Position numbers and translations under genes: made by a program
In this document: piece after piece, positions 9,089 to 35,451 of the stretch
Layout: every line of letters begins with the position of its first letter
Position numbering within the stretch: position 1 is the stretch's first letter
Assembly: GCF_900129445.1 (NCBI RefSeq)
Contig: NZ_FQVT01000002.1
Location: forward strand, 372,001 to 436,000
Source of the DNA: Salegentibacter echinorum
GTDB lineage: Bacteria; Bacteroidota; Bacteroidia; Flavobacteriales; Flavobacteriaceae
Reading direction: 5' to 3'
Length of the DNA: 64,000 nucleotides
Notes under the pieces: model-generated
What the model was told of the DNA's origin: nothing
Databases searched by the model: none
What the model saw: the letters and a program-made list of their open reading frames with translations, nothing else

Positions 9089-9150
9089 TGGATTGAGTTT
9101 TGCTAATTGTTGAATGAATTGTTTAAAATTCTAGGGAGAACAAGACAGGT

Positions 9151-13235: not shown

Positions 13236-13249
13236 GGTGGTGCCTCCAG
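13236..13249. repeat. Left attachment site (attL), 14-bp direct repeat
   Basis: GGTGGTGCCTCCAG, identical to 35377-35390, where it forms the 3' end of tRNA-Phe (acceptor stem and part of the T stem) plus two bases beyond. This isolated copy marks the left boundary of the integrated element. Confidence 0.88.
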
Positions 13250-13373: not shown

Positions 13374-13400
13374 TTTATGTTGCACCCTATGTAGCACCCT
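13374..13400 (+). repeat. Left subterminal repeat, probable integrase arm-type site
   Basis: A 27-bp sequence matching 35306-35332 at 26 positions in the same orientation. Each copy contains two (G/A)CACCCT units, separated by ATGTA. It lies about 125 bp inside the left attachment repeat and just before the integrase gene, where arm-binding sites of tyrosine recombinases are expected. Confidence 0.65.
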
Positions 13401-13429: not shown

Positions 13430-14743
13430 ATGAGCAACAGGGTTGAAAGGTCTCGGGGAACCATTCGATTTGGTTTTAAAACTCCACAAAAAGAGCTTGA
13501 AAAAGATACAAAAAAAGAACATTTACTTTATATGTTCTTTTCCTATGGTCGCGGTAAAAGATTAAAATATTCTACCGGATTTAAAACTTCCTGGCATAAT
13601 TGGGATGCCGGTAAAAATAAAATTAGAAAACGAGCAGATATTTTAAATAGTGATGCTGTAAATATTCATTTAAGAGATTTAGAGAATAAATTTTCTGATC
13701 GATTCGAGGAGTTGCAGCTTACTGATCCCAATATCACCCCAAAACAATTAAAGCGGGAATTAGATATTATTACCGATAAAATAAAAGTCACAGATCAACC
13801 TGAATACCTTTCATTTTTTGAAGTTATTGATAGGTTTTTAGAAGAAAAGAAAGGACGTGTAACCAATGTAACCTTAAGATCCTATAAACAAACAAAGAAA
13901 CGATTAGAGGAGTTTGAGAAAGCTGAGAATACCACTCTGGATTGGTCTAGCTTTGATATGGGTTTCTATTCCAAATTCACCCGATTTATGGAAAGTGAGA
14001 ATTACTCACTTAATACTATTGGGAAACATATAAAATCGCTAAAGACCTTCCTTAATTATTCAGTAGATGAAGGTTTTAATAATAACCTGAAATTCAGAAA
14101 TAACTCTTTTAAAGCTACAAAAGAAATTACCACCGAAATTTATCTTACCGAAGATGAAATTGAAGCTTTTAGACAAAAAGATTTAAGCAAGTACCCAAAT
14201 TTAGAAAAGGCCAGGGATATATTCTTAATAGGTTGCTACACAGGTCAAAGAGTTAGTGATTATAATAGCTTTAAAGAAGAAGATATTGTAAGCATTGATG
14301 GGGTAGATTACTTTAAAATTGTACAAAAGAAAAACCGAAAATCTGGCAGAAAGGTTTTATGCCCTATAACAAAGGAAATTCGTGAAATTATGGATAAACG
14401 TTATGAAGGGAAGCCGCCAAAACGAATACCCGATAAAGACCTCAACGATTATATTAAACAAGTAGGGCAGATGTTGGAAATGGATTCCCTAAACCAAAAA
14501 ATAAAATGCGAATACACCAAAGGTGGAGAATTTCAAACAGAATATATCGAGAAATACAACCTTATAAAATCGCATACCGCTCGTAGAAGTTTTTGCACCA
14601 ATAAATATAAAGCCGGTATGTCAGTGTACGATATTATGCTATTTTCCGGCCATACCACCGAAAAAGAATTCTATAAATACATTAGAATTAAGGAAGAAGA
14701 AAGAGCAACGCATATTGCTAAAAACGGCTATTTTAACTTGTAG
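13430..14743 (+). CDS. Tyrosine site-specific integrase
   Basis: A 437-residue recombinase of the Bacteroidota phage/conjugative-transposon type. After an N-terminal arm-binding region comes a SAM-like core-binding domain (about 125-225) and the catalytic domain (about 235-430). The catalytic set is visible: Arg274 in TGQRVSD, a Lys in the KNRKSGRK hairpin, His382-x-x-Arg385, His408, and Tyr417 nine residues later. It should cut and rejoin the tRNA-Phe 3' end and so drive integration and, with an excisionase, excision. It lies next to attL, whereas the tRNA gene is at the opposite end. Confidence 0.95.
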   Translation: MSNRVERSRGTIRFGFKTPQKELEKDTKKEHLLYMFFSYGRGKRLKYSTGFKTSWHNWDAGKNKIRKRADILNSDAVNIHLRDLENKFSDRFEELQLTDPNITPKQLKRELDIITDKIKVTDQPEYLSFFEVIDRFLEEKKGRVTNVTLRSYKQTKKRLEEFEKAENTTLDWSSFDMGFYSKFTRFMESENYSLNTIGKHIKSLKTFLNYSVDEGFNNNLKFRNNSFKATKEITTEIYLTEDEIEAFRQKDLSKYPNLEKARDIFLIGCYTGQRVSDYNSFKEEDIVSIDGVDYFKIVQKKNRKSGRKVLCPITKEIREIMDKRYEGKPPKRIPDKDLNDYIKQVGQMLEMDSLNQKIKCEYTKGGEFQTEYIEKYNLIKSHTARRSFCTNKYKAGMSVYDIMLFSGHTTEKEFYKYIRIKEEERATHIAKNGYFNL

Positions 14744-16759: not shown

Positions 16760-17059
16760 ATGATGGAACAAACAAAAGTTACTCAGGTTTTCGGTATTAC
16801 TCCCGAAGAATTAAAAGCAAGCATCGTGAATGATGTTAGAGCTGAATTAAGTCAGTTAGCTTCAAATTTTCAGGCACCAGATCCTGAAGAATACATTACG
16901 CGCCAGGAAGCCGCCGAAATTCTTAAGGTTTCTATTATCACTCTTTCCGATTGGAATAAAAAGGGAATTCTTAATCCCTATCGATTAGGTACGCTGGTAC
17001 GTTATAAAAGAAGTGAGTTAGATAAAGCACTTATTCAAATTAATCAAAATAAAAAATAG
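16760..17059 (+). CDS. Excisionase/MerR-type helix-turn-helix protein
   Basis: A 99-residue protein whose C-terminal half is a winged helix of the excisionase/MerR type: ITRQEAAEILKVSIITLSDW, then GILNPYRLGTLVRYKRSELDKAL. Such proteins bend DNA at attachment sites as recombination directionality factors or regulate element genes. The N-terminal 45 residues are helical and may mediate oligomerisation. It lies four bases before another helix-turn-helix gene. Two close ATG codons (16760 and 16763) are possible starts. Confidence 0.8.
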   Translation: MMEQTKVTQVFGITPEELKASIVNDVRAELSQLASNFQAPDPEEYITRQEAAEILKVSIITLSDWNKKGILNPYRLGTLVRYKRSELDKALIQINQNKK

Positions 17060-17063
17060 AGCT

Positions 17064-17369
17064 ATGGCACCAAAAGATCAATTTAGCATAGCTCAATGGG
17101 AGCAAATAAATAAGCGCTTAGACCAAATAATTGAGAAACTGGAAACCAAACCAAGTTTTGGTAGTGTGTTGTCTTTACTTGATAATGCCGATATTCTTCA
17201 GCTTTTTAAAATTAGCGCTAAAACCGCCCAACGCTGGCGAGACGAACATCAAATAGCTTATTCCCAAATTGGAAATAAAATCTATTATAAAATCGAAGAT
17301 ATTCAGGCCTTTTTAGACCGAAATTATCATAAGGTTCAAATAAGTAACGGGGACTCAAAACGTAAGTAG
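17064..17369 (+). CDS. Small helix-turn-helix protein
   Basis: A 101-residue protein with an N-terminal helix (QWEQINKRLDQIIEKLE) and a C-terminal excisionase-like domain (NADILQLFKISAKTAQRWRD, then YSQIGNKIYYKIEDIQAFL). In Bacteroidota elements two such proteins often lie in tandem between the integrase and the primase gene. One of the pair probably acts as excisionase and the other as a regulator, but the sequence does not say which. It is two bases before the primase-like gene. Confidence 0.75.
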   Translation: MAPKDQFSIAQWEQINKRLDQIIEKLETKPSFGSVLSLLDNADILQLFKISAKTAQRWRDEHQIAYSQIGNKIYYKIEDIQAFLDRNYHKVQISNGDSKRK

Positions 17370-17370
17370 G

Positions 17371-19587
17371 ATGGAAGCTGTATCAGTATATAAGAAATTC
17401 TCCTATGTGAAAGATTTGTCTTTAGAGGAAATGATTTCAAAAATAAAAACGGGGGAATATAAAGAGCAAATTATTCAAATTAGAGAGTGTATGCAAAAGG
17501 GAGAGGAGGATAAAGCAGACCGTTTAAAGGCTGCTTTACCCGCCTTTACCGCCTCGGGTACTTTTGTGGGTAGACGAATTGCAAAAAACTTAAACCAATA
17601 TTCTGGTTATTTAATACTCGATTTAGACCATATAAATAAATCGGCTTATAAAGAAAAGTGGGATTTAGTATGCCTGGCACCTTATACCTATTTCGCCTTT
17701 CGAAGCCCGAGAGGGGAGGGTATTAAAATTCTTGTGCCTGTAAATTCAGGACCAGAAGTTCATAAAAAAGCCTTTGAACAGGTGGTTAAGTATTATGAGC
17801 AATGCTTGCAGTTGGAAATTGATACTTCTGGCAGTGATATTAATAGATTGTGTTATGTGTCTTATGATGAAGATTGTTTTTTAAAGGAAAATGGTGAAAT
17901 TTTTGAAGTAGAAATAACACCCGAAATAACTAAAAATTCCAATAAATCTATTCCGGAAAATATAGTACCTACCGGTAACTTAATAGAGGACTGTGTGGCA
18001 TTTACTGAAAACTGTATTTCCTATCAGGAAGGTAGTAGAAACAATTTTATTCATCAATTAGCCTGTAATACGAATCGAAGAGGCATTCCTGAACAGGAAC
18101 TATTAGAATTTTGCTTACAGAGCTATGATTTACCTCAACGCGAAATAAGCAATACAATAAATAGCGCTTATAAAAATAATACTGCAGACTTTGCAAAGTT
18201 TGCAAAGCTTGCAAGCCCTGCAGGAAATCAGGAAAAAGAAAACGAAGAAGAAAATCTTCTAAATATGCCTTATTTACCCGATGAGGTTTTTGATGATTTA
18301 CCTGAAATTTTAAAAGAAGGAGCCAGGGTATTTAAAGATCGCAGGGAAAGAGATGTTTTTCTAACTAGTGCTATCGCTATTTTAAGCGGATGTCTCCCTT
18401 GTATCTCGGGCACCTATGATGGTAAAGAACATTCGGCTAATTTGTTCTCTTTTGTAATAGCTCCAGCTGCTAGTGGAAAAGGTTCTATAACCTATGCAAA
18501 AGATTTAGCGCAACAGCATCATAAACGTTTGGTGGCAGAAAGTCAGGAAGCTTATCGCAATTATCAGATGGAAGAAAAAGAGTATAAACGAAAGTTAGCC
18601 GATAAAAAAATAGACACCGCCAATCTCGAACCACCGGTAGAACCACCATTTAAAGTTTTATACATACCGGCAAATAATAGTAGTGCAAGGGTTATTCAAC
18701 AACTTCACGAAAGTGAAAATAAGGGTATTTTTTGTGAAACCGAAGCCGATACAATGGGTAATGTCTTAAAACAGGATTGGGGCGGCTATTCCGATTTACT
18801 TAGAAAAGCCTTTCATCACGAATCTATTTCCTATAGCCGAAAAACCGATAAAGAATGGGTAGAAATTGAAGGTCCAAAATTATCTATTTGTTTGGCCGGT
18901 ACTCCAAGCCAGGTAAAAAGCCTTATCGCCACTGCCGAAGATGGTTTATTTAGTCGTTTTCTCTTTTACACGTTTAAAAATGAAATTAAATGGCGGGAAA
19001 TTGGGCCAACTTCAAATGGCGTTAATCTCACTACTCATTTTTCTGAATTAGGTAAACAGGTATTAGAATTAATAGATTTTCACGAAACCCAGGCCGATGT
19101 TACTTTTGAACTTACCGAAGTACAATGGGCTAAACTCAATGTTTTTGGAAGTAAAGGTTTAAATTACCTGGCTACGTTTATTAGTGAAGATCTTAGCAGT
19201 ACTTCAAAACGTTTAGGTTTAATTCTATACAGAATTGCGATGGTATTTACCGTATTAAGATATTACGAGAATGCAGAAGTAAGTTTAAACTATACCTGTG
19301 AAGATCGCGATTTTGATAATGCTTTAAAATTAGTTGAGGTTTACCAGGAACACGCGGTAACTATCTTTAAAAATCTACCCAAAGAAAGTGCTATTACGAA
19401 TACCGCAATGAAAAATTTCTATCTAAAATTACCGGTGAAATTTAAAAGAAAAGAAGCTATAAAACTTGCTGAGAAAATGGGTATAAAAGAAAGAACTGCA
19501 GATTATTACCTTTCTAAATTAACTAAAACCTGTTTCCTTAAGAAGGAAAAAGAAGGGGTATATGAGAAAGAAAGTCATAACATCTAA
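17371..19587 (+). CDS. BT4734-like/DUF3987 primase-helicase-like protein
   Basis: A 738-residue protein. The N terminus (about 1-180) matches the BT4734/VirE-N family, with the acidic pair in YLILDLDHI and the downstream GEGIKILVPV that belong to a primase-polymerase-like fold. The remainder (about 300-690) is DUF3987, with a P-loop-like APAASGKG near residue 365. Such proteins accompany tyrosine integrases in Bacteroidota mobile elements and probably serve element replication, like PrmN1 of NBU elements. It is the last gene of the integrase-proximal module; the following 181 bp are non-coding. Confidence 0.8.
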   Translation: MEAVSVYKKFSYVKDLSLEEMISKIKTGEYKEQIIQIRECMQKGEEDKADRLKAALPAFTASGTFVGRRIAKNLNQYSGYLILDLDHINKSAYKEKWDLVCLAPYTYFAFRSPRGEGIKILVPVNSGPEVHKKAFEQVVKYYEQCLQLEIDTSGSDINRLCYVSYDEDCFLKENGEIFEVEITPEITKNSNKSIPENIVPTGNLIEDCVAFTENCISYQEGSRNNFIHQLACNTNRRGIPEQELLEFCLQSYDLPQREISNTINSAYKNNTADFAKFAKLASPAGNQEKENEEENLLNMPYLPDEVFDDLPEILKEGARVFKDRRERDVFLTSAIAILSGCLPCISGTYDGKEHSANLFSFVIAPAASGKGSITYAKDLAQQHHKRLVAESQEAYRNYQMEEKEYKRKLADKKIDTANLEPPVEPPFKVLYIPANNSSARVIQQLHESENKGIFCETEADTMGNVLKQDWGGYSDLLRKAFHHESISYSRKTDKEWVEIEGPKLSICLAGTPSQVKSLIATAEDGLFSRFLFYTFKNEIKWREIGPTSNGVNLTTHFSELGKQVLELIDFHETQADVTFELTEVQWAKLNVFGSKGLNYLATFISEDLSSTSKRLGLILYRIAMVFTVLRYYENAEVSLNYTCEDRDFDNALKLVEVYQEHAVTIFKNLPKESAITNTAMKNFYLKLPVKFKRKEAIKLAEKMGIKERTADYYLSKLTKTCFLKKEKEGVYEKESHNI

Positions 19588-19768
19588 ATTCATTATTTTA
19601 AAAGTTTATTAAATTCTTATCTTGGCTTCCTACAGTAATCCCTACAATGCTGTTGATAAACCCCACAAATTTAGTGGTGTTTATGTAAACAAATGTGCTT
19701 TTACAATGGTAGAAATACTAATATTGAAATTTATTGGTATCAAATACTCCTAAAATAAAATACGACAC

Positions 19769-22474
19769 GTGAAATCAGCAGAGATAAAAAATAACGTTCA
19801 AGACCTCATTGATAACTTCTCAAAAGAAGAGTTTATTTTTGATTTATTAAGAGCCTATGGCATTTCAAAAACCTCTGTAACACGTTTGAAAAAGGGAGAT
19901 TACAATCTCTCTAAAGTGGATGGCGAAATACTTTACAAAAAGAAAATTTTCTTTAAAGTAGAAGCCACTGATAGACTGTTGAGTAGTATTGATTCGATTT
20001 CAAATAACGAGCAAATTTTAAAGCAGAAACCTAGGTTCGCTGTTCTTACCGACTATAAGCAATTAGTAGCCAGGGATCTAAAATTAGGCAAGAATCTGGA
20101 TATTAAATTAAAAGAATTATCCAATTACTTCGATTTCTTTTTGCCTTTGGCAGGCAGCGAAGTTTATAATGCTACCAACAATAATGAAGCCGATAGAAAT
20201 GCCTCGTATAAGATGGCAGAATTGTATGATCTATTGGTGGAAGAAAACCCCAATGTTTATAATTCAAAAGAAAGCGTTCACGAACTTAATATTTTTCTGT
20301 CCCGTCTCTTATTTTGCTTCTTTGCTGAAGATACCGATATCTTTGAACAAGACAGTATTTTTACGAATACCTTAGCACAACACACCACTGAAAATGGTAA
20401 AGACACCCATACGTTTTTAGATGAGTTATTTGACCGCTTAAATAGCGAAAGTGGAAAGGACTATCCTGCGTTTCTGGCAAAATTCCCTTATGTTAATGGT
20501 GGTTTATTTGGTCAAAAAATATACTCACCAAAATTTAATACTAAGACTAGAAAAATTTTAATTGATTTAGGTGATCTCAAATGGTCCGAGATCAACCCTG
20601 ATATTTTTGGGTCTATGATTCAGGCGGTAGTGGATAAAGATTACCGCAGCGATCTAGGGATGCACTACACTTCTGTAGAAAACATCAAAAAATTGATAAA
20701 ACCACTGTTTTTGGATGAACTCTATGAAGCCTACGAGAATGCCAGAACAGTTAAACAACTCAACGCGCTTATTCAACGAATCTCAAAAATAAAATTCTTT
20801 GACCCTGCCTGCGGTAGCGGAAATTTTTTAATTATTACCTACAAGGAAATCCGCTTGTTGGAAATTAAGATTCTACAAAAAATAACCGATTTAGAAACAA
20901 ACCCAAGTTTTAAATGGACCTCTATACAGCTGTCCCAATTTTACGGCATAGAAATAGACGACTTTGCCCACGAAATGGCAATTCTCTCGCTATGGCTGGC
21001 AGAACACCAAATGAATAAAGTGTTTGAAGAAATGCTTTTTGATTATGGGAAAACAAAACCCATTCTACCACTTAAAGAAGCGGGTCAAATACAACAAGGA
21101 AATGCCACCAGAAAAGATTGGAGTAAGATATGCCCTATTTCTAAAAAGGATGAAGTTTATATTATTGGAAATCCACCTTATTTAGGTTATAGCCGACAAG
21201 ATGAAAGTCAAAAAGAAGATATGAAAAATGTCTTCTCTCGCATCAATAATTATAAAAAGCTAGATTATATCGCTTGTTGGTTTTATAAAGCAACGAAGTA
21301 CATTGAAAATAGGTTTTCAAAATACGCTTACGTTACTACCAATTCAATCACGCAAGGTGAGCAAGTGGCTTTACTTTGGCCACTTATTTTAAACAAAGGA
21401 CAAGAAATTGAATTTGCTCATCAATCTTTCAAATGGACCAACAACGCCAAAGGAAATGCAGGTGTAGCTGTAGTAATTATTGGTATTAGAAATAATGATA
21501 CAACAGACAAATTCCTTTATAATCAAAACCTGAAGCAAAGTGTAAAAAATATCAGTCCTTATATAACTAACACTTCCAACGTTTACGTTTCGCCAAGAAC
21601 AAATCCTCTAAGCAATTTACCTTCAATGATTAAAGGGAGTTCACCAGGCGACAATGGCAATTTACTTTTAGACCAGGACGAGAAAAACGAAATAATTTCT
21701 AAGTATCCTGAAGCCGAAAAATTCATTAAAAAATACATTGGTGCATCTGAGTTTATAAAAGGCACAAGCAGGTATTGTATTCACATTACAGATGAGAATG
21801 TAAAGGAAGCTTACAAGGTTAAAGCACTTGAAGAACGCTTTGAAAAAGTTGAAATTTTTAGGCTAAACAGTAAAAAAGTAGCCACACAGAAAAAAGCTGA
21901 AACACCTCACTTTTTTGATGAAGATAAACATCAAAAAGGCGAATTTATTTTAGTTCCTCAAACAGGTTCAGAAAGGAGAAACTATGTTCCGATTGGATAT
22001 TTTGATGAATCGTATGTTCCTTCAAACGCAACAAGAGTTATTTACAAAGTTCAACCTTGGCTTTTCGGTGTAATATCTTCAAGAATGCATATTGTTTGGG
22101 TAAAAGCTGTTGCAGGGCGATTAAAAATGGATATGCAATATTCAAACACGCTTTGCTACAACACCTTCCCTTTTCCAGACATCACGACCAAGCAAAAGGA
22201 GAACTTGAATCAATACGTGTTTGATATTTTGGATGAGCGCGCCAAACACCCCAGCAAAACAATGGCACAATTGTACAATCCAAGTACAATGCCCAAAGGT
22301 TTGCTACAAGCCCATCAAGAATTAGATACCGCCATAGAGCAATGTTACCGTTTGCAACCTTTTAAAAACGATACTGAGCGTTTGGAGTATTTATTTAAAT
22401 TGTATGAAAAGATGGTAAAGGAAGATACGCTATTTTCTAAGCAAAAGAAAACGAGAAAAAAGAAAGTGAAATGA
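19769..22474 (+). CDS. MmeI-family N6-adenine DNA methyltransferase with a degenerate nuclease domain
   Basis: A 901-residue protein, GTG start, matching MmeI-type (type IIL) enzymes throughout: N-terminal nuclease-like domain, spacer (FLSRLLFCFFAEDT, FPYVNGGLFG, HYTSVENI), methyltransferase core with DPACGSGN (345-352, AdoMet) and NPPY (468-471, adenine catalysis), then a target-recognition region (YIGASEFIKG, GRLKMDMQYS, YNTFPFP). In MmeI the N-terminal PD-(D/E)xK motif contains E-x-K; at the matching place here I read FFKVEATD, which breaks it. The protein should therefore modify but probably not cut DNA. Two separate genes downstream encode a helicase and a nuclease, suggesting cleavage in trans. 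Confidence 0.9.
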   Translation: MKSAEIKNNVQDLIDNFSKEEFIFDLLRAYGISKTSVTRLKKGDYNLSKVDGEILYKKKIFFKVEATDRLLSSIDSISNNEQILKQKPRFAVLTDYKQLVARDLKLGKNLDIKLKELSNYFDFFLPLAGSEVYNATNNNEADRNASYKMAELYDLLVEENPNVYNSKESVHELNIFLSRLLFCFFAEDTDIFEQDSIFTNTLAQHTTENGKDTHTFLDELFDRLNSESGKDYPAFLAKFPYVNGGLFGQKIYSPKFNTKTRKILIDLGDLKWSEINPDIFGSMIQAVVDKDYRSDLGMHYTSVENIKKLIKPLFLDELYEAYENARTVKQLNALIQRISKIKFFDPACGSGNFLIITYKEIRLLEIKILQKITDLETNPSFKWTSIQLSQFYGIEIDDFAHEMAILSLWLAEHQMNKVFEEMLFDYGKTKPILPLKEAGQIQQGNATRKDWSKICPISKKDEVYIIGNPPYLGYSRQDESQKEDMKNVFSRINNYKKLDYIACWFYKATKYIENRFSKYAYVTTNSITQGEQVALLWPLILNKGQEIEFAHQSFKWTNNAKGNAGVAVVIIGIRNNDTTDKFLYNQNLKQSVKNISPYITNTSNVYVSPRTNPLSNLPSMIKGSSPGDNGNLLLDQDEKNEIISKYPEAEKFIKKYIGASEFIKGTSRYCIHITDENVKEAYKVKALEERFEKVEIFRLNSKKVATQKKAETPHFFDEDKHQKGEFILVPQTGSERRNYVPIGYFDESYVPSNATRVIYKVQPWLFGVISSRMHIVWVKAVAGRLKMDMQYSNTLCYNTFPFPDITTKQKENLNQYVFDILDERAKHPSKTMAQLYNPSTMPKGLLQAHQELDTAIEQCYRLQPFKNDTERLEYLFKLYEKMVKEDTLFSKQKKTRKKKVK

Positions 22475-22592
22475 TAAAGGTTTTACATTTTTTATGTTTC
22501 CAGATGAATATTGAGTTTTTCAAAAATGATGATGTAAAATAATTTTGATAAACTTTACATAAACTTAATTAAGAGTTTTAAAAAAAAATATA

Positions 22593-24566
22593 ATGCCAAA
22601 TTTAGTAGAAGTAAACTATAAGCAAACCGGTAAAAGTAAAAGTACTAATGCCTTTGGAATGCGGGAAATGCAACAAAAAGCTTACGAAGGCAGAACAGCA
22701 CAATATTTATTAATCAAAGCCCCACCAGCATCAGGTAAATCAAGGGCTTTAATGTTTATTGCTTTAGATAAACTGAAAAATCAGGGCATTAAAAAAGTGA
22801 TTGTTGCCGTTCCTGAAAGATCCATTGGTGCTTCTTTTGGAGAAACAGAACTTAAGAAATTTGGCTTTTTTGAAGACTGGATTCCTAATCCCAAATACAA
22901 TTTGTGTACACCGGGCGAAGAAAAAAGTAAAGTAAAAACATTTCAGAAATTTTTAGAATCTCAAGAACAAATTTTGGTTTGTACGCATTCCACATTACGC
23001 TCTGCTTTTGAAGGCCTGGATCCAAAAAAACTGGATGACTCATTAGTTGCTATTGATGAATTTCATCACGTTTCAGCTGAAGGTGACAATATATTAGGTC
23101 GGGTACTAAAAAGTATTATGGCAAATTCAAATGCTCATATAGTGGCTATGACAGGCTCTTATTTTAGAGGCGACAGTGTTCCAGTATTAATGCCGGAAGA
23201 TGAAGCAAAATTTACCAAGGTAACTTATACCTATTACCAGCAATTAAACGGCTATGATTATTTAAAATCTTTGGGTATAGGTTATCACTTTTACACGGGG
23301 AAATATTTTAAAAAGAATCCGGAAACCGGTATTTCTGCACTGGCAGAAATATTAAATGAAGACCAAAAGACCATTATTCATATCCCTAGTGTAAACTCTG
23401 CTGAATCTTCTAAAGAGAAATACGAAGAAGTAAACCATATCATTGATGTTTTGGGTGAGTTGGAATATCAGGATGAAACCACAGGCGTATTACATATTAA
23501 AAGCCATAAGACAGGCAAAATGTTGAAAGTTGCTGATTTGGTAAATGACAATCCAAAGTCAAGAGACAAAATAAGTGCCTTCCTGCGAACTGTAAAATCA
23601 GCAAGCGATATAGATATCATTATAGCTCTAGGTATGGCAAAAGAAGGTTTTGATTGGCCCTATTGTCAACACGCCTTAACCATCGGATACAGAGGTTCTT
23701 TAACTGAAATTATTCAAATTATTGGTAGAGCTACCCGAGATAGTAATAATAAAAGCCACGCACAGTTTACCAATCTTATTGCTGAACCGGATGCAGAGAG
23801 TGATGAGGTTAAATTATCGGTAAATAATATGCTTAAAGCTATTACGGCTTCTTTATTAATGGAGCAGGTTTTGGCACCAAACTTTAAATTTAAGCTCAAA
23901 AAAGACGATGATGAAGAGAATGATGAGGAAGATGAAGAAGATGATAACACGATTAAAATAAGAGGTTTTAAGTTGCCTACTTCACAAAGAGCTAAAGATA
24001 TTATTGATACAGATTTAAATGATTTAAAAGCTAAAATTCTTCAAGATCCTCAAATGCTCAAAGCTATGCCGGGTAATATCGAACCGGAAGTAATAAACAC
24101 TGTTTTAATTCCGAAAATTATTCGAGAGGTCTATCCAGACCTGGAAGATGAAGATGTTGAAGCAGTAAGACAGCACGTGGTCGTAGATTCAGTTATTAAG
24201 AATGGGACCATTGAAGAACAAGGTGATAAAAAATTTATTAGAATGGCTGGAAGCTTTGTGAATATAGATGATATTCATATAGATTTAATAGACCAGGTGA
24301 ATCCATTTCAAAAAGCATTTGAAATATTGTCCAAATCCGTAACGACACAGGTTTTAAAATTAATTGATGAACATATTCAATCGACTAAGATTGAAATGAC
24401 CGAAGAAGAAGCCATTTTACTTTGGCCTAAAATAAAAGAATGGGTTAAGAATAATAATGGTGAGCAGCCAAACATCCAGGCATTTGACCATAAAGAAAAA
24501 AGAATGGCGGAAGCATTAGTGTTTTTAAGGGAATTGAAACGTAAAAGAGCACTTGAAAATGGGTAA
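22593..24566 (+). CDS. DEAD/DEAH-box superfamily 2 helicase/translocase
   Basis: A 657-residue ATPase with Walker A APPASGKS (43-50), Walker B DEFH (155-158), an SAT-like MTGS motif, and motif VI QIIGRATR (375-382). An acidic linker (about 430-450, mostly Asp/Glu) separates the motor from a C-terminal domain without recognised family. It resembles motor subunits of restriction systems. It follows the methyltransferase by 118 bp, which contains TTTACAT repeats, and overlaps the nuclease gene by 8 bp, so helicase and nuclease are coupled while the methyltransferase may be expressed separately. Confidence 0.88.
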   Translation: MPNLVEVNYKQTGKSKSTNAFGMREMQQKAYEGRTAQYLLIKAPPASGKSRALMFIALDKLKNQGIKKVIVAVPERSIGASFGETELKKFGFFEDWIPNPKYNLCTPGEEKSKVKTFQKFLESQEQILVCTHSTLRSAFEGLDPKKLDDSLVAIDEFHHVSAEGDNILGRVLKSIMANSNAHIVAMTGSYFRGDSVPVLMPEDEAKFTKVTYTYYQQLNGYDYLKSLGIGYHFYTGKYFKKNPETGISALAEILNEDQKTIIHIPSVNSAESSKEKYEEVNHIIDVLGELEYQDETTGVLHIKSHKTGKMLKVADLVNDNPKSRDKISAFLRTVKSASDIDIIIALGMAKEGFDWPYCQHALTIGYRGSLTEIIQIIGRATRDSNNKSHAQFTNLIAEPDAESDEVKLSVNNMLKAITASLLMEQVLAPNFKFKLKKDDDEENDEEDEEDDNTIKIRGFKLPTSQRAKDIIDTDLNDLKAKILQDPQMLKAMPGNIEPEVINTVLIPKIIREVYPDLEDEDVEAVRQHVVVDSVIKNGTIEEQGDKKFIRMAGSFVNIDDIHIDLIDQVNPFQKAFEILSKSVTTQVLKLIDEHIQSTKIEMTEEEAILLWPKIKEWVKNNNGEQPNIQAFDHKEKRMAEALVFLRELKRKRALENG

Positions 24567-25770
24567 AAAGAAATTGACCATAGACGATATTTTTGATGAT
24601 GATGATTTTGGATTGTTAGATTCTAATGTCAAAACTTCAACTGTAAAAACAGATGAACAAAGATTAATAGAATCATTTGAAGAAATAAACATTTTTATAG
24701 ATAAGAATGGTAGGGAGCCGGGCAAATCCAGTATGTCGGAATATGGTTTACAGGCTAAACTAAAAAACTTCAGAGAGAATGAAGTCCAGAAAAAGATACT
24801 AAAACCATATGATAAACATAATTTATTAGGGTATGTAGAAATTGAAAAGAAATCAATCGATGATATTTTAAATGATGATGAGTTAGGTTTATTGGATGCA
24901 GAAAATGATTTAGATATTTTCAAATTTAATCACACCCCAAAAATAGAAGATAGGCAGGAAACAGATTTCGTGGCTCAAAGAAAACCAATTAAAGAAAAGG
25001 ACTTTGATAAATATGAAAAAATGTTTTTACAGGTTCATAGGGAAATAAAAGATGGAAAGCGTAAGATTAAACCATTTACCAACATTGAAAAGAATCTACA
25101 CGTTGGCGATTTTTATCTTATGAATGGAATTATGCTGTATTTAGAATCAGCTAACTTAAAAAAAGAAGAGTGGGAGCAGAAATCAGGTAATAGAATTAGA
25201 GTGGAAGGGCGTACTAGAACCGTTTTTGAAAATGGAACTTACAGCAATATGCTTTATCGATCTTTAGGTAAACAAATTCAAAAAGAAGGTAAATTAATTA
25301 CCAATACTAAAGATAAAATTGAAGAAGATTTGTTTGTGAATTCGGGATTGGTAAAAGAAGAAGATGTGCAGTCTGGTTGGATTTACGTTTTAAAAAGTAA
25401 GTCTTCCAGAAAAGAAATAGCCGGAATTCAAAATCTTTACAAGATTGGTTTTGCAAGTGAATCTGTAGATTTAAGAATAAAAAATGCAAAAAAAGAAGCT
25501 ACCTATTTGTATGCCGATGTTCAAAAATTTGCTACTTACAAAGTATATAATAGAAATGCCGATAAGTTAGAAGCTCTTTTACACCGGTTTTTCGCTAAGG
25601 CCTGCTTAGACATCGATTTATTTAATGACAAAGGACAAAGATTAAATCCTAGAGAATGGTTTGTAGTACCTTTTGAAGCCATAGAGCAAGCAATTCAATT
25701 AATTTTGAATGAGAATATTATCCACTATGAATATGACCCTTCCCAGGAGAAGGTTATATTAAAAGGTTAA
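24559..25770 (+). CDS. GIY-YIG nuclease (T5orf172/MUG113 type) with repeated acidic N-terminal motifs
   Basis: A 403-residue protein from the ATG at 24559, overlapping the helicase stop by 8 bp. The C-terminal domain (about 272-390) is a GIY-YIG nuclease: GWIYVLKS (Tyr276), YKIG (Tyr294), the catalytic Arg in DLRIKNA, Glu in LEALLHRFF and the late REWF. The N-terminal half is not recognised but holds two copies of a short acidic motif, TIDDIFDDDDFGLLD near residue 6 and SIDDILNDDELGLLD near residue 98, likely binding peptides. It probably supplies the DNA-cutting activity of the methyltransferase-helicase system. Confidence 0.85.
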   Translation: MGKKKLTIDDIFDDDDFGLLDSNVKTSTVKTDEQRLIESFEEINIFIDKNGREPGKSSMSEYGLQAKLKNFRENEVQKKILKPYDKHNLLGYVEIEKKSIDDILNDDELGLLDAENDLDIFKFNHTPKIEDRQETDFVAQRKPIKEKDFDKYEKMFLQVHREIKDGKRKIKPFTNIEKNLHVGDFYLMNGIMLYLESANLKKEEWEQKSGNRIRVEGRTRTVFENGTYSNMLYRSLGKQIQKEGKLITNTKDKIEEDLFVNSGLVKEEDVQSGWIYVLKSKSSRKEIAGIQNLYKIGFASESVDLRIKNAKKEATYLYADVQKFATYKVYNRNADKLEALLHRFFAKACLDIDLFNDKGQRLNPREWFVVPFEAIEQAIQLILNENIIHYEYDPSQEKVILKG

Positions 25771-25883
25771 AATAGAAATCGTATAAAAATAAACGTTTTC
25801 TAATTTTGCCATCGTGTTGAGGTTGCTTTAATCAAGTACCATTTTTCACTAAAATAGGAAAGAATTATACTCGAAGAAATTAT

Positions 25884-25944
25884 TATATTTGTCTGAAAAC
25901 GTGGTTACCCTGCCTCTTCGCAATGCACACTGGGTAACCCTTTT
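25884..25944 (+). promoter_or_regulatory. TAnnTTTG promoter box followed directly by a terminator-like hairpin
   Basis: TATATTTG at 25884-25891 fully matches the flavobacterial -7 box. Twelve bases later a perfect 8-bp stem GGTTACCC/GGGTAACC (25903-25910 and 25932-25939) with a 21-nt loop is followed by CTTTTT. This could be the terminator of the nuclease gene, or a very short transcript. No clear -33 TTG is seen. Confidence 0.45.
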
Positions 25945-26025
25945 TAATTAAAGTCATAATTAGTTAATTCTTTTGAGCTTTCCTTCATCGTTTATAAAAT
26001 GTAAACTATTCCTTAGCTGGTACCA

Positions 26026-26033
26026 TATATTTG
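26026..26033 (+). promoter_or_regulatory. Candidate promoter -7 box for the CoiA-like gene
   Basis: TATATTTG, an exact TAnnTTTG match, 21 bp before the start codon. It sits within a palindrome-like ACCATATATTTGGT, so an overlapping operator is possible. A -33 TTG at good spacing is not obvious. Confidence 0.4.
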
Positions 26034-26054
26034 GTATTCTAAAAAAGTTCAGCA

Positions 26055-26981
26055 ATGCGCTACGCACTTAATTTAAATAAAGATGAGGATGAGGTTGAAG
26101 TTTCACATTCAGGAGAAATTGGATGGTGTGGGATTTGTAACTCTAAAGTACAGGGGAAAAAAGGTGATGAAAGGGTTGCCCACTGGGCCCATATAAATTC
26201 CAAAAATTGTGATAGTTGGTATGAACCAATAACCGAATGGCATTTATGGTGGCAAAATCAATTTCCGAAGATAAATAGAGAAGCTATTGTAGAAAAAGCA
26301 GGTAAAAAACACCGTGCTGATATCTTACTTCAAAAGGATAATAAAGAGATTGTCATTGAAGTACAAAATTCATCCATTCCAATTTCACAAATCCAAAAAA
26401 GAGAAGCTTTTTACCAAAATTTAATATGGATTTTAAACGGTAAAAGTTTAGCAAATTCATCTCGTTTAGTACGAATAGGGGTAGACCGCTTATATACCTG
26501 GAAGATAAAATTTCCGCTGCTATTGCGAAGTAGGTCAGAATACCTTAAAACTGAGTTTATTGAAGACATTGTAGATCTTATCAAAAATAGGTTCTACGAT
26601 AACAACTATCACGATTATAAATTCCAGGACACCACCTTAGAGATATACTTCTACCATCATAATGATATAGATTTGCAAATGGATATACCTCAATTAAAAT
26701 ATAATATAGTTGGATACTTTGAAATGCATAACGACTACGATAATATTGATAATGATGAATTACATCATAAATTGCAGATTTCCTATACCGAAACTAAGGT
26801 TGATTTACAAAGCCATTATTTGACAAAAAGCTACTGGAGAAAGTTTATAGATAAAATGAAATGCAATGTTTTTTTCGATAAATTAAATGGCCTTGAGAGT
26901 GATGAATTATATTGGTACACTAAGGATAAAATAGTGAAAAAGGATCGGTTTATTAGTAAATACCAAAAAATGGCAAAGTAA
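26055..26981 (+). CDS. CoiA-like nuclease-domain protein
   Basis: A 308-residue protein with the CoiA competence-protein layout: an N-terminal zinc-ribbon-like start (CGICNSK), the HWAH motif followed by Cys, ITEWHLWWQ, then a PD-(D/E)xK-type core RADIL...IVIEVQNS and a downstream QIQKREAFY helix. CoiA-like proteins act on DNA in natural transformation and also occur as lone genes in mobile elements. Residues 150-308 are not recognised. It is a single gene between the restriction-like system and the FtsZ-like unit, with its own likely promoter, so a defence or DNA-processing role is plausible but unproven. Confidence 0.72.
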   Translation: MRYALNLNKDEDEVEVSHSGEIGWCGICNSKVQGKKGDERVAHWAHINSKNCDSWYEPITEWHLWWQNQFPKINREAIVEKAGKKHRADILLQKDNKEIVIEVQNSSIPISQIQKREAFYQNLIWILNGKSLANSSRLVRIGVDRLYTWKIKFPLLLRSRSEYLKTEFIEDIVDLIKNRFYDNNYHDYKFQDTTLEIYFYHHNDIDLQMDIPQLKYNIVGYFEMHNDYDNIDNDELHHKLQISYTETKVDLQSHYLTKSYWRKFIDKMKCNVFFDKLNGLESDELYWYTKDKIVKKDRFISKYQKMAK

Positions 26982-27089
26982 AATTGTAACAAAAAAATTA
27001 CTTAAGCTATTCCTAAATATTAAATTCATAGATTAAAATGCCATATTACTAATAAATTATTATATTTATTATTCATTCAATTGATAAAT

Positions 27090-27632
27090 ATGGATAATCT
27101 ATACGAATTAATAGCTAATCCCAAGTATAGTCTTAAAATTTTTGCAAAAGCAAGGGGAAAGAATAGGGCAAGAAAAGCTGTAAATGATGTCTACAAGAAA
27201 ATTTACAACGGCGGTTATGATGTCTTGGATTCAAAAATAGTTTTTCTAAAAATTTCTACTGGTAGTGAGGAAATAACAGTAGATGAAATTAGTGCTATAA
27301 ATGATTCTATTCTTAATAGTATGAGAGCGGGCGTGAGCGTTCATATGGAAATTGATGAAAAAAATTTAGATGATGAAATTGAATTACAGCTGATTTTTTC
27401 AAAATTAAATATAGATACAGACAAACTCGATTTTAAGTTATTATTTAATTCTTTAGCCCCTACAGTAGAAAGTTTACCTATTTATTTTTTAGAAGATGAG
27501 TATGACCCGGAAGAAATGAGTGCGATGATCTCTTGCCTGTCTGATCTCTATAAAGAAATTGGTGGCGATGCTTTAAGAATAAAAGGCTTTTCAAAGGTTC
27601 AGTTAGAAAAGTATTTTGAACCATCAATTTAG
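27090..27632 (+). CDS. Stand-alone FtsZ C-terminal-domain-like protein
   Basis: A 180-residue protein from the ATG at 27090 (an upstream TTG at 27081 is also in frame). Residues about 12-104 read like the FtsZ C-terminal domain that follows the T7 loop: ARGKNRARKAV aligns by eye with FtsZ GENRA-x-x-A, and ISTGSEEITVDEISAINDSI with the FtsZ strand-helix segment of Bacteroidota, continuing to DEKNLDDEIELQLI. The GTP-binding domain and T7 loop are absent. A C-terminal tail (about 125-175, LPIYFLEDEYDPEEM...GGDALRIKG) is unassigned. It could cap or poison FtsZ filaments, or be a domesticated regulator. It is coupled to the next gene. Confidence 0.6.
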   Translation: MDNLYELIANPKYSLKIFAKARGKNRARKAVNDVYKKIYNGGYDVLDSKIVFLKISTGSEEITVDEISAINDSILNSMRAGVSVHMEIDEKNLDDEIELQLIFSKLNIDTDKLDFKLLFNSLAPTVESLPIYFLEDEYDPEEMSAMISCLSDLYKEIGGDALRIKGFSKVQLEKYFEPSI

Positions 27633-27636
27633 TCCT

Positions 27637-28110
27637 ATGGAAGAGACAAAGCAGAATTTTATAAAGATAGACTTGATAGGTTTAAATGAAACGCTTTTTG
27701 AAAATTTACGTGGCCATTTAATAGCAAAAATTAACGATGTATTAGATTGCTCTACCAGGGATGATAAGGGAGTATCTATTAAAAGCCTAATGGAAAAACA
27801 TATTTCATCGGGCAGTAACAATTCAACTCCATCTCAATATAGTCCTGGGGTTAGTAATTATAAAGTTTTCTCAGAAATAAAAGAGAAATTCTCTAAAATA
27901 GAAAGAAGTAAGGCAGAAGCAAGAAAGATAAATGCCGAAGCCAAATCATTAGAATTTGAGCAAAAACTTAAAGAACTAAAATTAACTTTTAAAATGACCA
28001 AATCTCTTTTAATCGGTCAGCAAGGAGAAGAAGCAATTGCCTTTACAAAACAATTAGAATCTTTTGTGGAAATAATTGATAGTTTACAGGAATCTCAAAA
28101 GCTAAACTAA
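27637..28110 (+). CDS. Coiled-coil protein partnered with the FtsZ-like gene
   Basis: A 157-residue protein starting at the ATG four bases after the upstream stop. An N-terminal alpha/beta stretch (about 1-45) is followed by a flexible Ser/Asn/Pro region (50-75) and a long charged coiled coil (about 80-135, EIKEKFSKIERSKAEARKIN and onward). No family is recognised. The close spacing shows it works with the FtsZ-like protein, perhaps as an adaptor or effector. Confidence 0.6.
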   Translation: MEETKQNFIKIDLIGLNETLFENLRGHLIAKINDVLDCSTRDDKGVSIKSLMEKHISSGSNNSTPSQYSPGVSNYKVFSEIKEKFSKIERSKAEARKINAEAKSLEFEQKLKELKLTFKMTKSLLIGQQGEEAIAFTKQLESFVEIIDSLQESQKLN

Positions 28111-28410
28111 ACAAGCGCCTTCAGCCGTATTGCACTCGGTACTAACCTCGTGCATACCGCTTTCGGCTAAGGAGGCAAATTTACTCATTCGCTCACTTCC
28201 GGCTCCGCCTGCTCTTCGCTCATTCCTAAAATTGCCCTGTTTTTACGGCTTTCCACATTTTAATTAATAGAATATTCTTAAATTGCTAAAGCAAGCGGCC
28301 TATCCCTACATCGGTTGCTTGTTTTTTCAGCCGATACATTTCAGTTTTATAATTCACAATTAACGACCAGAAATACCAGGCTTAATCCTATTAACTTCAA
28401 ACATACTCCA
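28111..28410. other. Intergenic GC-rich stretch with a nested hairpin
   Basis: About 300 bp between the coiled-coil gene and a lipoprotein gene. The first part is much richer in G+C than its surroundings and folds as CCTT-c-AGCCG (28118-28127) with CGGCT-AAGG (28164-28172), enclosing CGGTA/TACCG (28137-28141 with 28155-28159). It lacks an open frame of convincing length; the lipoprotein frame extends upstream of its true start without family support. It may be a terminator or structured RNA. Confidence 0.45.
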
Positions 28411-28878
28411 ATGAACAAATTTTTACTTTTTTTATCACTAATTAGTGTTTCCTTTTTAACAAGTTGCGGTAGTCTTACCACCTCTGATAATACTCCAATT
28501 ACCAAAGTAGTCCCCGTTGAAAATACATCCAAAAATGAATTGTATGTAAGGGCTAATAACTGGATGGTAGAAGCCTTCAATGATGCTGAATCGGTAGTTC
28601 AATTTACCGATAAAGAATCAGGAACTATTACGGGAAAATATTATTTGAGCCCCATTACATCAGCTAACCAATATGGTCCGGGTCAGGATGCCTATGCAAT
28701 AATTAATATCCAGGTTAAAGATGATGCCAGTAAAATTACTGTTACTCCCGAGGAATTTCAGTATATGAAAGGAAATATGTACACCTTGTACAAAGAAGAA
28801 GATGCGAAGAACAAAATCAACAATTTGATTTCCTCATTTGAAGAAAGTATCGTGGAAAAGGATAATTCAGATTGGTAA
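28411..28878 (+). CDS. DUF4468-domain lipoprotein
   Basis: A 155-residue lipoprotein from the ATG at 28411, which begins the signal peptide MNKFLLFLSLISVSF and lipobox LTSC (Cys at about 18). The mature part matches DUF4468 (SKNELYVRANNWMVEAFNDA, then FTDKESGTITGKYYL), a small alpha/beta domain of unknown function common in Bacteroidota envelopes. The frame stays open to 28315, but those residues are not a signal sequence. It is a single gene. Confidence 0.7.
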   Translation: MNKFLLFLSLISVSFLTSCGSLTTSDNTPITKVVPVENTSKNELYVRANNWMVEAFNDAESVVQFTDKESGTITGKYYLSPITSANQYGPGQDAYAIINIQVKDDASKITVTPEEFQYMKGNMYTLYKEEDAKNKINNLISSFEESIVEKDNSDW

Positions 28879-28929
28879 ACTCTATCCGAAATTTATTCTA
28901 AAAAAATAATTAAAAATTACATATTAACT

Positions 28930-28966
28930 GGCGAGACGGCGCTCTCGCTTCGCAACGCCGTCCGCC
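28930..28966 (+). terminator. Strong GC hairpin between two lipoprotein genes
   Basis: GGCG-a-GACGGCG pairs with CGCCGTC-CGCC (28930-28941 with 28956-28966): eleven base pairs with one bulged A, then TTTAATTAATT. It probably ends the upstream transcript, though the T tract is interrupted. It may equally belong to the series of structured spacers in this cargo region. Confidence 0.5.
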
Positions 28967-28979
28967 TTTAATTAATTAA

Positions 28980-29519
28980 ATGAAAATATATAATATTATT
29001 AAAAAGACAATACTACTAGTTATCGCAATATTTAGTTTTATTATTACATCGTGTTCAAGTGAGGATGCGAATAATGAGAAAAATTCTAATGAGAGTAAGA
29101 TAAATGTTACTATCAATGGGACTGAATACAGGTTTAATACTTTTACTTTTGAAAAGCATTTTGAAGATCCAAATGATAAATATTATTACGTTACAGCTAA
29201 GATCGACAATAAAGATGATTTAGTTATTGAGTTTGATGTCACACTTGGATTAACTGCGGATCAAGGTGATAATATTATCGGTGAATTTAACCTTCACACC
29301 CGTGAGAATAATAATGATTGCTCTTACTATGCTCCTGACACTCCTTACCCTGATATAAATGTAACAGCAAATAATGAAGAGGAATTCATTGCTACACTTG
29401 CTTTTTCAAATGGTTATGGAGTATACTGCAATGGTTTGTATTACAGTGAGGATGCTCCAGATGCTCCTTTTGGAAATGAGGTTACTTATACCAATGGTTC
29501 GATCTATTTAGATTTATAA
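28980..29519 (+). CDS. Hypothetical lipoprotein
   Basis: A 179-residue protein with signal peptide and lipobox ITSC (Cys about 24), followed by an acidic Asn/Glu-rich linker and a beta-rich domain starting KINVTINGTEYRFNTF. Two late cysteines (CSYY and YCNG) may form a disulfide. The domain begins like small surface lipoproteins of Flavobacteriia but I cannot name a family. It is a lone gene; the DNA is very AT-rich, which fits recent acquisition. Confidence 0.65.
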   Translation: MKIYNIIKKTILLVIAIFSFIITSCSSEDANNEKNSNESKINVTINGTEYRFNTFTFEKHFEDPNDKYYYVTAKIDNKDDLVIEFDVTLGLTADQGDNIIGEFNLHTRENNNDCSYYAPDTPYPDINVTANNEEEFIATLAFSNGYGVYCNGLYYSEDAPDAPFGNEVTYTNGSIYLDL

Positions 29520-29678
29520 ATTTTCTCAATATAGTGACCTAATGGATATTGAAACTATAAACCCAATTAGTAATGCACTTATGTTTTTTTAACATAAACC
29601 ACTCGCAACGTACTCCGGTTTTGCTTGAGATATTCTTTTATATTAGGATACTATAACGAGTTGCAAACATTTTAAAAA

Positions 29679-30443
29679 ATGTTAAACCAAAAATTGAAGG
29701 GAGAAATAGTTTACTTTTTTGAAGGTAAGCATCAGTATTCAAAGTTAAATGAGAGCAAATCTTTTTTAAAACAAAGAATTGTAATTGACGCAGACGGGGA
29801 GAAATTAACTATCTCATTTTATGACAAGTATATCGATCTTTTGAGATTCTGCAAAATAGGGTCAGAAATTGCAATTGATGTCAAATTAAAAGGCAGTATG
29901 TGGAAATACGGTCAAAAGCAATATTCTGCTAATGAACTTATTTGTAAATCCCTTGAGATTGTAAAGAATACAAGAATTGATAATTGGATTAGGTATAAAG
30001 AAGGTATTTATAACCTAAGGAAATACTATCGTGACAATAATCTTCTTATAGAATTAGTAAATACCAGTAATCATAAGAGTTTAATTCTTTGCATAAACCA
30101 TTCATTCCCGAATAAAGAATTAAACAAAGATCACATTTTGCTGTGGGATATAGTGGACGATGAATTAATACGACTTCTAGAAAATAAAGGCATTATAACT
30201 AAACAAAGATTTTTAAGAAGCAAAGATGGTTATTCGGGGTATATCTGTAAAGTACTAGTTTTAGACTTGTTCAGCGATAACGAATTTTTATTTGATGGTA
30301 TTCCTGACGAAAACAATAAAATCCACCATCAACCGGAAAATAGATCCATCAATCACAAATTTACGGATATTACAGACTATACCCATTACAATGAAGATCT
30401 AGATAAAGACCAACAAAGCGAAGATTTTTGGAATCAGTTTTGA
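29679..30443 (+). CDS. OB-fold-like (DUF3127-type) protein with unknown C-terminal part
   Basis: A 254-residue protein. Its first 95 residues resemble the DUF3127 single-strand-DNA-binding-like OB fold: KGEIVYFFEG, FLKQRIVIDADGEKLTISFY, IGSEIAIDVKLKGSMW, then KSLEIV. The C-terminal 150 residues are unassigned and end in an acidic tail (DLDKDQQSEDFWNQF), a feature of ssDNA-binding proteins that dock partners. A nucleic-acid-binding role is inferred. It is a single gene preceded by cassette-like inverted sequences. Confidence 0.5.
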   Translation: MLNQKLKGEIVYFFEGKHQYSKLNESKSFLKQRIVIDADGEKLTISFYDKYIDLLRFCKIGSEIAIDVKLKGSMWKYGQKQYSANELICKSLEIVKNTRIDNWIRYKEGIYNLRKYYRDNNLLIELVNTSNHKSLILCINHSFPNKELNKDHILLWDIVDDELIRLLENKGIITKQRFLRSKDGYSGYICKVLVLDLFSDNEFLFDGIPDENNKIHHQPENRSINHKFTDITDYTHYNEDLDKDQQSEDFWNQF

Positions 30444-30596
30444 AATAAAATATTTGCTAAAACAATATAAAAATAATGCTAAATCTGTCTCAAATCTTGA
30501 GTCTTTGCTTGCTGCGGCTAGTAGGCCTAGGCTCAACCAAACTCAACAACTCGAATTGTTATTATACGAGACATTAGCTGCAAGCCTAAACAAATT

Positions 30597-35305: not shown

Positions 35306-35332
35306 TTTATGTTGCACCCTATGTAACACCCT
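35306..35332 (+). repeat. Right subterminal repeat, probable integrase arm-type site
   Basis: Partner of 13374-13400, in the same orientation and with a single G-to-A difference. It lies about 45 bp inside the right attachment repeat. The paired (G/A)CACCCT units suggest two bound integrase monomers at each end. Confidence 0.65.
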
Positions 35333-35338
35333 GAAATT

Positions 35339-35376: not shown

Positions 35377-35390
35377 GGTGGTGCCTCCAG
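35377..35390. repeat. Right attachment site (attR), 14-bp direct repeat
   Basis: GGTGGTGCCTCCAG overlapping the tRNA-Phe 3' end and identical to 13236-13249. It leaves the tRNA gene intact after integration. Confidence 0.88.
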
Positions 35391-35451
35391 GAATCGAACC
35401 AGGGACACAAGGATTTTCAGTCCTTTGCTCTACCAACTGAGCTAAGGCACC
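35379..35451 (-). tRNA. tRNA-Phe (GAA)
   Basis: A 73-nt cloverleaf: acceptor stem GGTGCCT/AGGCACC, D arm GCTC/GAGC, anticodon loop CTGAAAA with GAA, and T arm CCTGG-TTCGATT-CCTGG. The discriminator is A and CCA is not encoded. It is the integration target of the element to its left. A near-consensus promoter lies upstream. Confidence 0.97.

Follow-up and report, generated by a model that had tools for sequence, protein, structure and literature searches.

The closest described relative of the locus reported here is the dnmA(yeeA)-yeeB-yeeC cluster of Bacillus subtilis, a published set of the same composition (PMC9973331, PMC7261158). DnmA is a MmeI homologue without the endonuclease motif that forms N6-methyladenine (m6A) in GACGAG, YeeB is a superfamily 2 (SF2) helicase and YeeC is a T5orf172 protein; the second neighbour is usually a member of the T5orf172/GIY-YIG families, and the order dnmA-yeeB-yeeC is kept across other genomes (PMC9973331, PMC7261158). 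A type I-like restriction-modification (RM) system was suggested earlier for these genes, homologues of YeeB and YeeC were named putative anti-phage genes by Makarova et al. (cited via PMC9973331, PMC7261158), and in Vibrio crassostreae the deletion of dnmA or yeeB is reported to have led to higher sensitivity to some phages (PMC9973331). Here, we analysed a stretch of 64,000 bp from Salegentibacter echinorum (contig NZ_FQVT01000002.1, positions 372,001 to 436,000 of the forward strand), referred to as the window, which carries a trio of genes that, compared by published description, belong to the same three families and show the same order and direction as DnmA-YeeB-YeeC of B. subtilis and its V. 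crassostreae homologues. In the window, too, a methyltransferase without the D-x9-ExK nuclease motif is followed directly downstream by a helicase and, in second place, by a T5orf172/GIY-YIG protein. An initial annotation of this stretch knew of no named system with such a composition and had specified that an already described set would overturn its proposal; the set is already published as dnmA-yeeB-yeeC (PMC9973331, PMC7261158), and the claim of novelty thus falls by that annotation's own criterion. Its interpretation of modification, motor and nuclease as split over three co-occurring proteins is retained. The literature searched, from which most subscription journals were missing, contained no formal name given to the trio since then.

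The composition of the trio is as initially annotated: three open, co-directional reading frames (ORFs; Table 1), identified by Pfam domains and, for the first gene, by a phmmer match to MmeI. The methyltransferase contains all five MmeI domains of Pfam in the MmeI order N-hel-Mtase-TRD-C (E = 2e-78 for the target recognition domain, TRD), matches the solved MmeI chain 5hr4_C with E = 2e-181 and is homologous to MmeI over residues 85 to 899. The second gene matches DEAD, ResIII and Helicase_C, and the third matches T5orf172 and MUG113 and is taken, on the basis of Pfam, as a member of the T5orf172 branch of the GIY-YIG superfamily. The gap between the methyltransferase and helicase genes is 118 bp, with no RhuM, AlbA_2 or Fic gene inside. 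The 8-bp overlap of the helicase and nuclease genes was confirmed; of 79 related loci, 39 allow an identical one, and the two genes may be translationally coupled through it. The PADLOC 2023 library labels the first gene best as REase_MTase_IIG and gives only weak matches for the second and third; no model for the whole trio turned up in it.

Do the three genes belong together beyond this genome? Co-occurrence, proposed as a check by the initial annotation, was scored in 80 loci, the best among 554 confirmed relatives of the helicase from named genomes, and thus covers close relatives of the window helicase only. Wherever more than 3.5 kb of upstream sequence was available (62 loci), the methyltransferase was present, and the nuclease was present in all 75 loci whose downstream sequence exceeded 1.5 kb. 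Under a looser rule, the figures were 68/68 for the methyltransferase (12 of the 80 not scorable) and 79/79 for the nuclease (one not scorable); this count includes some methyltransferases that are broken or run off a contig end, and a methyltransferase of more than 850 aa is present in 60 of the 80 loci.

A key question concerns the nuclease activity that MmeI carries in its own chain. In a sample of 296 genomes from the phylum of the window, taken to be Bacteroidota by its nearest named neighbours in the tree, MmeI_TRD (PF20466) was matched in 46 and the helicase in seven; the B. subtilis control genome also gave a PF20466 match. Among 28 full-length MmeI-like enzymes of this sample, D-x9-ExK was present in all 23 without helicase and nuclease in the analysed stretch and absent from all five with these partners, one of which (L068) matches the pattern further along the chain. 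In a wider alignment, the D-E-K columns were kept in 23/23 lone enzymes versus 0/65 trio enzymes (the window, 60 from the best-80 helicase loci and four phylum loci); nine trio rows match the loose pattern, but at other columns. The MmeI nuclease motif is thus gone exactly in those MmeI-like proteins that have partners, which supports the initially proposed distribution of modification, motor and nuclease over separate proteins. In the window enzyme, the D and E of the motif correspond to E53 and K63, and the last K falls in a gap. In a tree of methyltransferase residues 165-590, the 65 trio rows occupy one side of a branch with support of 100/100, consistent with a single split.

The N-terminal domain itself has been kept, with 158 residues aligning to 180 of the Pfam model. 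Several positions conserved among the 65 trio enzymes differ in the lone ones (L125 in 63, P126 in all 65, R39 in 60, N46 in 61, R89 in 63 and D142 in all 65), and in 36 pairs whose helicases are at least 90% identical this domain averages 85% identity versus 48% for the recognition domain. Such conservation makes it possible to suggest that the dead nuclease domain has acquired a new role, most likely the docking of the motor and the nuclease.

The low similarity of the recognition domains was assessed in 58 complete trios. Among 43 pairs (18 sequences, hence non-independent) with helicases at least 88% identical, recognition domain identity was below 60% in 38 and at least 75% in five, with none between, while the less alike of the two flanking methyltransferase parts averaged 80%. 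Sliding comparison of the window methyltransferase with that of L077 gave 82-95% identity at positions 281 to 421, 38-69% at 481 to 761 and 98% at 801; the comparison with L080 gave 60-100% throughout. Among close relatives, the variable stretch spans approximately residues 440 to 795 (about 21086-22153). In the pair L078 and L079, conversely, the recognition domains are 98% identical and the other three methyltransferase parts 85, 93 and 90% identical. This pattern in the sequences fits cassette exchange better than fast drift alone. The recognition module thus varies alongside a constant motor, as expected for a specificity subunit; most likely, the methyltransferase fills this role as an exchangeable part of a type I-like restriction complex.

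Which site might such a subunit read? In MmeI, a residue pair has been linked to G:C versus C:G at position 6 (PMC4833311), and L078 (KD) and L079 (ER) differ at precisely this pair. The window enzyme has K786/D788 at the sites of MmeI residues 806/808 and K622/S625 at the sites of 642/645. For this enzyme, the MmeI residue code (PMC4833311) predicts G at position 6 and, with less certainty, a purine at position 2. The predicted site is roughly N-R-N-N-m6A-G, the remaining bases not being predictable, and would include the DnmA site GACGAG.

The motor and nuclease genes were examined in alignments of 37 and 44 hand-picked rows, respectively, the shortened helicase of L071 being excluded from the former. 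The helicase residues P44-P45-A46-S47-G48-K49-S50 (Walker A) and D155-E156-F157-H158 (DEFH) are invariant in all 37 rows, and nuclease residues Y276, K295-I296-G297, R306 and E338, which we take to be the GIY-YIG catalytic positions, are invariant in all 44. The structural model of the nuclease (pLDDT 81.5, pTM 0.40) consists of a helical N-terminal part, a middle of strands and helices and a C-terminal domain. A short acidic motif, DDI(F/L)xDDxxGLL, occurs twice in the window nuclease (Table 1), with at least one copy in 32 and two copies in 16 of the 44 aligned homologues, and could be a docking motif.

Taken together, these sequence features make a type I-like, three-chain restriction system with a MmeI-derived, exchangeable subunit for specificity and modification the probable identity of the trio. 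The MmeI-like protein would read an asymmetric six-base site through its target recognition domain and methylate one adenine there. At an unmethylated site, it would recruit the SF2 motor into a complex, probably by way of what is left of its own, catalytically dead nuclease domain; the motor would then translocate DNA, and the GIY-YIG protein would cut it, which may protect the cell from phages. A further-reaching proposal, which we regard as possible rather than likely, is that the trio represents a distinct restriction class. In such a class, the motor and the nuclease would form a shared pair that docks on the dead type IIL nuclease domain, and strains would exchange the recognition module (residues ~440-795) as a cassette, with paired residue changes for fine-tuning, which would provide a widespread, naturally programmable type I-like immunity of predictable specificity.

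Several observations weigh against the restriction system. Confidence in the helicase model is low (pLDDT 68.3, pTM 0.48), and its fold matches, HsdR of EcoR124I among them, are to SF2 proteins in general; for the nuclease model, Foldseek returned no PDB structure with an E-value of 0.001 or below. Two of the seven phylum genomes with the helicase have no intact MmeI-like methyltransferase adjoining it: L070 has none, and L071 has a 123-aa fragment next to a helicase that also lacks the Walker A end. These exceptions argue against a strictly obligate methyltransferase partner. A further objection comes from B. subtilis, where the cluster gave neither restriction of plasmid uptake (PMC7261158) nor protection against three phages (PMC9973331), and the methylated motif is not under-represented in phage genomes; the authors regard the cluster as a relic (PMC9973331, PMC7261158). 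C-terminal stretches are reported to be absent from YeeB and YeeC of B. subtilis. On the other side, the deletion of dnmA did not slow growth there (PMC7261158), which fits a nuclease whose action needs DnmA, although it fits a dead nuclease equally well.

The B. subtilis results also favour, for the window, the explanation proposed for that species, namely, that the methyltransferase alone works, as an orphan epigenetic regulator, and that helicase and nuclease are dispensable leftovers of restriction. Against this, all three genes of the window are open and lie on a mobile element, the signature residues of motor and nuclease are invariant in aligned homologues from many phyla, which would be unexpected for leftovers, and the exchange of recognition domains points to continuing selection for new specificity. 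We therefore consider such a relic unlikely.

The trio was also compared with other known systems. With type IIL enzymes, represented by MmeI, the window enzyme has all five domains in common; MmeI, however, cuts by means of its own N-terminal PD-ExK nuclease and needs no motor, whereas this motif is not present in the window chain, and membership in type IIL was rejected on this ground. As in type I RM systems (HsdRMS), the motor is a separate protein and the recognition module is exchanged while the motor is kept. Unlike in type I, recognition and methylation reside in one MmeI-like chain and the nuclease is a separate GIY-YIG protein; no HsdS-type specificity subunit was matched among the nine proteins scanned (17371-31676). 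BREX and DISARM resemble the trio in combining an adenine methyltransferase with a helicase or ATPases, and the window methyltransferase has distant PADLOC matches to DrmMI and PglX. DISARM class 1 has the partners DrmA, DrmB and DrmD. No DISARM partner was found among the nine proteins, and the best DrmMI score was 132.5 bits versus 1005 for the type IIG model, so DISARM was rejected. The single-gene anti-phage protein PD-T4-3 shares a GIY-YIG domain with the trio (PMC12409345) and differs in having neither methyltransferase nor helicase.

For BREX, the comparison bears on a further explanation, in which the methyltransferase marks self DNA and the helicase with its partner keeps unmarked DNA from replicating; this DNA would only be bound or nicked by the GIY-YIG protein and would suffer no double-strand cuts. 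BREX, too, uses methylation of non-palindromic six-base sites, and the DnmA target GACGAG is of this length (PMC7261158). Nevertheless, the NCBIfam BREX-1 PglX model gave 37.6 bits against a cut-off of 500, and no PglZ/BrxC partner was detected among the same nine proteins, on which grounds BREX was rejected; in addition, the nuclease retains its invariant Arg and Glu. A BREX-like block thus appears quite improbable.

The exceptional locus L070 (genome G238) suggests yet another possibility, namely, that the helicase-nuclease pair is a self-standing effector aimed by varied readers, of which the MmeI-like methyltransferase is merely the commonest. In this genome, the pair occurs without a MmeI-like methyltransferase in the 19 kb analysed, G238 is not among the 46 PF20466 genomes of the phylum sample (the same draw of 296 is presumed), and the C-terminal tail of the nuclease has a sub-threshold ASCH match (E = 0.0093, 17.1 bits versus 21.2). 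An AlbA_2 gene lies directly upstream of the pair, which stands between SIR2-HerA (PADLOC E = 2e-86 and 1.7e-168) and Septu PtuA/PtuB genes (L070:3635-14048), a setting that was counted in favour of restriction. This is, however, one genome only, and G411, with a related tail, keeps an adjacent methyltransferase with five MmeI domains, so that simple loss in G238 is as likely. We consider a self-standing effector very improbable as a general explanation, although the motor-nuclease pair may be re-aimed by other readers in cases such as G238.

The spacing of the genes varies among the trio operons. In 67 loci, the methyltransferase-helicase gap is at least 400 bp in 33, below 100 bp in 33 and between these values in one. 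The 53 of 63 gap proteins that were scanned included RhuM (12), SLFN_AlbA_2 (9) and Fic (5) proteins; RhuM, AlbA_2/Schlafen, Fic and other genes are nested within about half of the trio operons (L078-L150). Genes such as these also occur in type I RM operons. In L138, L146 and L175, the nuclease is spread over two ORFs, a short N-terminal one and a GIY-YIG part, representing either a natural split or a frameshift.

The trio methyltransferases of the tree belong to Bacteroidota, Pseudomonadota, Campylobacterota, Spirochaetota, Planctomycetota, Chlamydiota, Lentisphaerota, Saccharimonadota and others, including one archaeal record; many of these taxa are placed by metagenome-assembled genomes, and single placements may represent contamination. 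A search of 72,556 plasmid records for the helicase gave 263 with a match at E ≤ 1e-20, of which 153 cover 80% or more of the protein. Neighbours were examined in three of these records, and a Bacillaceae plasmid bears the trio (annotated as DNA methyltransferase, DEAD/DEAH box helicase and GIY-YIG nuclease), with a helicase 55% identical to that of the window. A search for near matches of a Proteus plasmid helicase among 5,426 E. coli genomes found none, and among 50,697 phage records only two matched the window helicase, each over 25% of its length.

In the window, in contrast to B. subtilis, the trio is carried by an element with tRNA-Phe repeats on both sides (Table 1). An integrase, two HTH_17 genes and a DUF3987/PriCT primase precede the trio, and the region from 13.2 to 35.4 kb is enclosed by direct repeats, of which there are two pairs; these features support the initial description of the trio as cargo of an integrated element. 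The copies of the 27-bp repeat are 96% alike, and its 21-bp core occurs twice in the window with up to three mismatches (0.00 expected). Homology to nine loci of the same genus begins at 35310-35335, which places the right end of the element there or slightly rightward. In genome G304, examined as a relative for an empty site, a distance of 2.9 Mb on one contig separates the transporter of the left flank from the tRNA-Phe locus. Five of the same-genus loci L156-L163 were read and carry differing genes on the 3' side of tRNA-Phe (window 35377-35451), which looks like an integration hotspot.

Table 1 Features of the trio and of its carrying element, in positions of the 64,000-bp window
Feature	Position	Strand	Remarks
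14-bp direct copy of the tRNA-Phe 3' end, left flank	13236..13249		Repeat search
27-bp direct repeat, left copy	13374..13400		Repeat search
Tyrosine-recombinase integrase of the element	13430..14743	+	Phage_integrase E 1e-8, Phage_int_SAM_5 E 1e-12
Two small HTH_17 genes of the element	16760..17369	+	Pfam
Element primase (BT4734-like_N, PriCT_1, DUF3987)	17371..19587	+	Pfam
MmeI-family N6-adenine DNA methyltransferase (DnmA/YeeA-like), putative recognition and modification subunit, nuclease motif lost	19769..22474	+	901 aa, GTG start
MmeI N-terminal nuclease domain remnant (residues 1-158)	19769..20242	+	Pfam and alignment
Target recognition domain (residues 602-805)	21572..22183	+	Pfam
SF2 helicase/translocase (YeeB-like)	22593..24566	+	657 aa; Pfam
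Helicase/nuclease gene overlap, 8 bp	24559..24566	+	Nuclease ATG at 24559, helicase stop at 24566
GIY-YIG (T5orf172/MUG113) nuclease (YeeC-like)	24559..25770	+	403 aa from ATG 24559; T5orf172 domain at about residues 273-382
Acidic motif, first copy DDIFDDDDFGLL	24583..24618	+	Starts at nuclease residue 9
Acidic motif, second copy DDILNDDELGLL	24859..24894	+	Starts at nuclease residue 101
27-bp direct repeat, right copy	35306..35332		Repeat search
tRNA-Phe	35377..35451	-	Its 3' 14 bp (35377-35390) recur at 13236-13249

The other genes of the element were compared with 146 loci. Of the 15 at 13.4-34.6 kb, eleven were without a match, and the remaining four gave one or two each (integrase 2, first HTH_17 gene 1, second HTH_17 gene 2, primase 2). 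Since the neighbours are nearly without match, the unit of the system is the three trio genes, and the neighbouring genes were rejected as members. A CoiA nuclease-like gene (E = 4e-10; 26055-26981) lies 285 bp downstream of the trio and had no match beside the trio in the 146 loci. Near the right end of the element, a gene of the SRAP family (SOS response associated peptidase, E = 1e-54) occupies 32562-33182, and to the left of the element, a nitrous-oxide-reductase propeller repeat gene (7127-9681, E = 1e-35) adjoins a cytochrome c gene.

The composition of the trio and the loss of the nuclease motif were already known. What appears to be new is the grouping of the trio methyltransferases in one clade and the exchange of recognition cassettes in the dnmA-yeeB-yeeC family, neither of which was found in the partial literature searched. 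For MmeI-like enzymes, the code that links residues to bases has been partly deciphered (PMC4833311), and the targets of a restriction complex with a MmeI-like, swappable specificity subunit would therefore be predictable in part. Whereas the copy in B. subtilis appears to be inactive (PMC9973331), open copies such as the window trio allow the study of whether and how this broad family restricts DNA.

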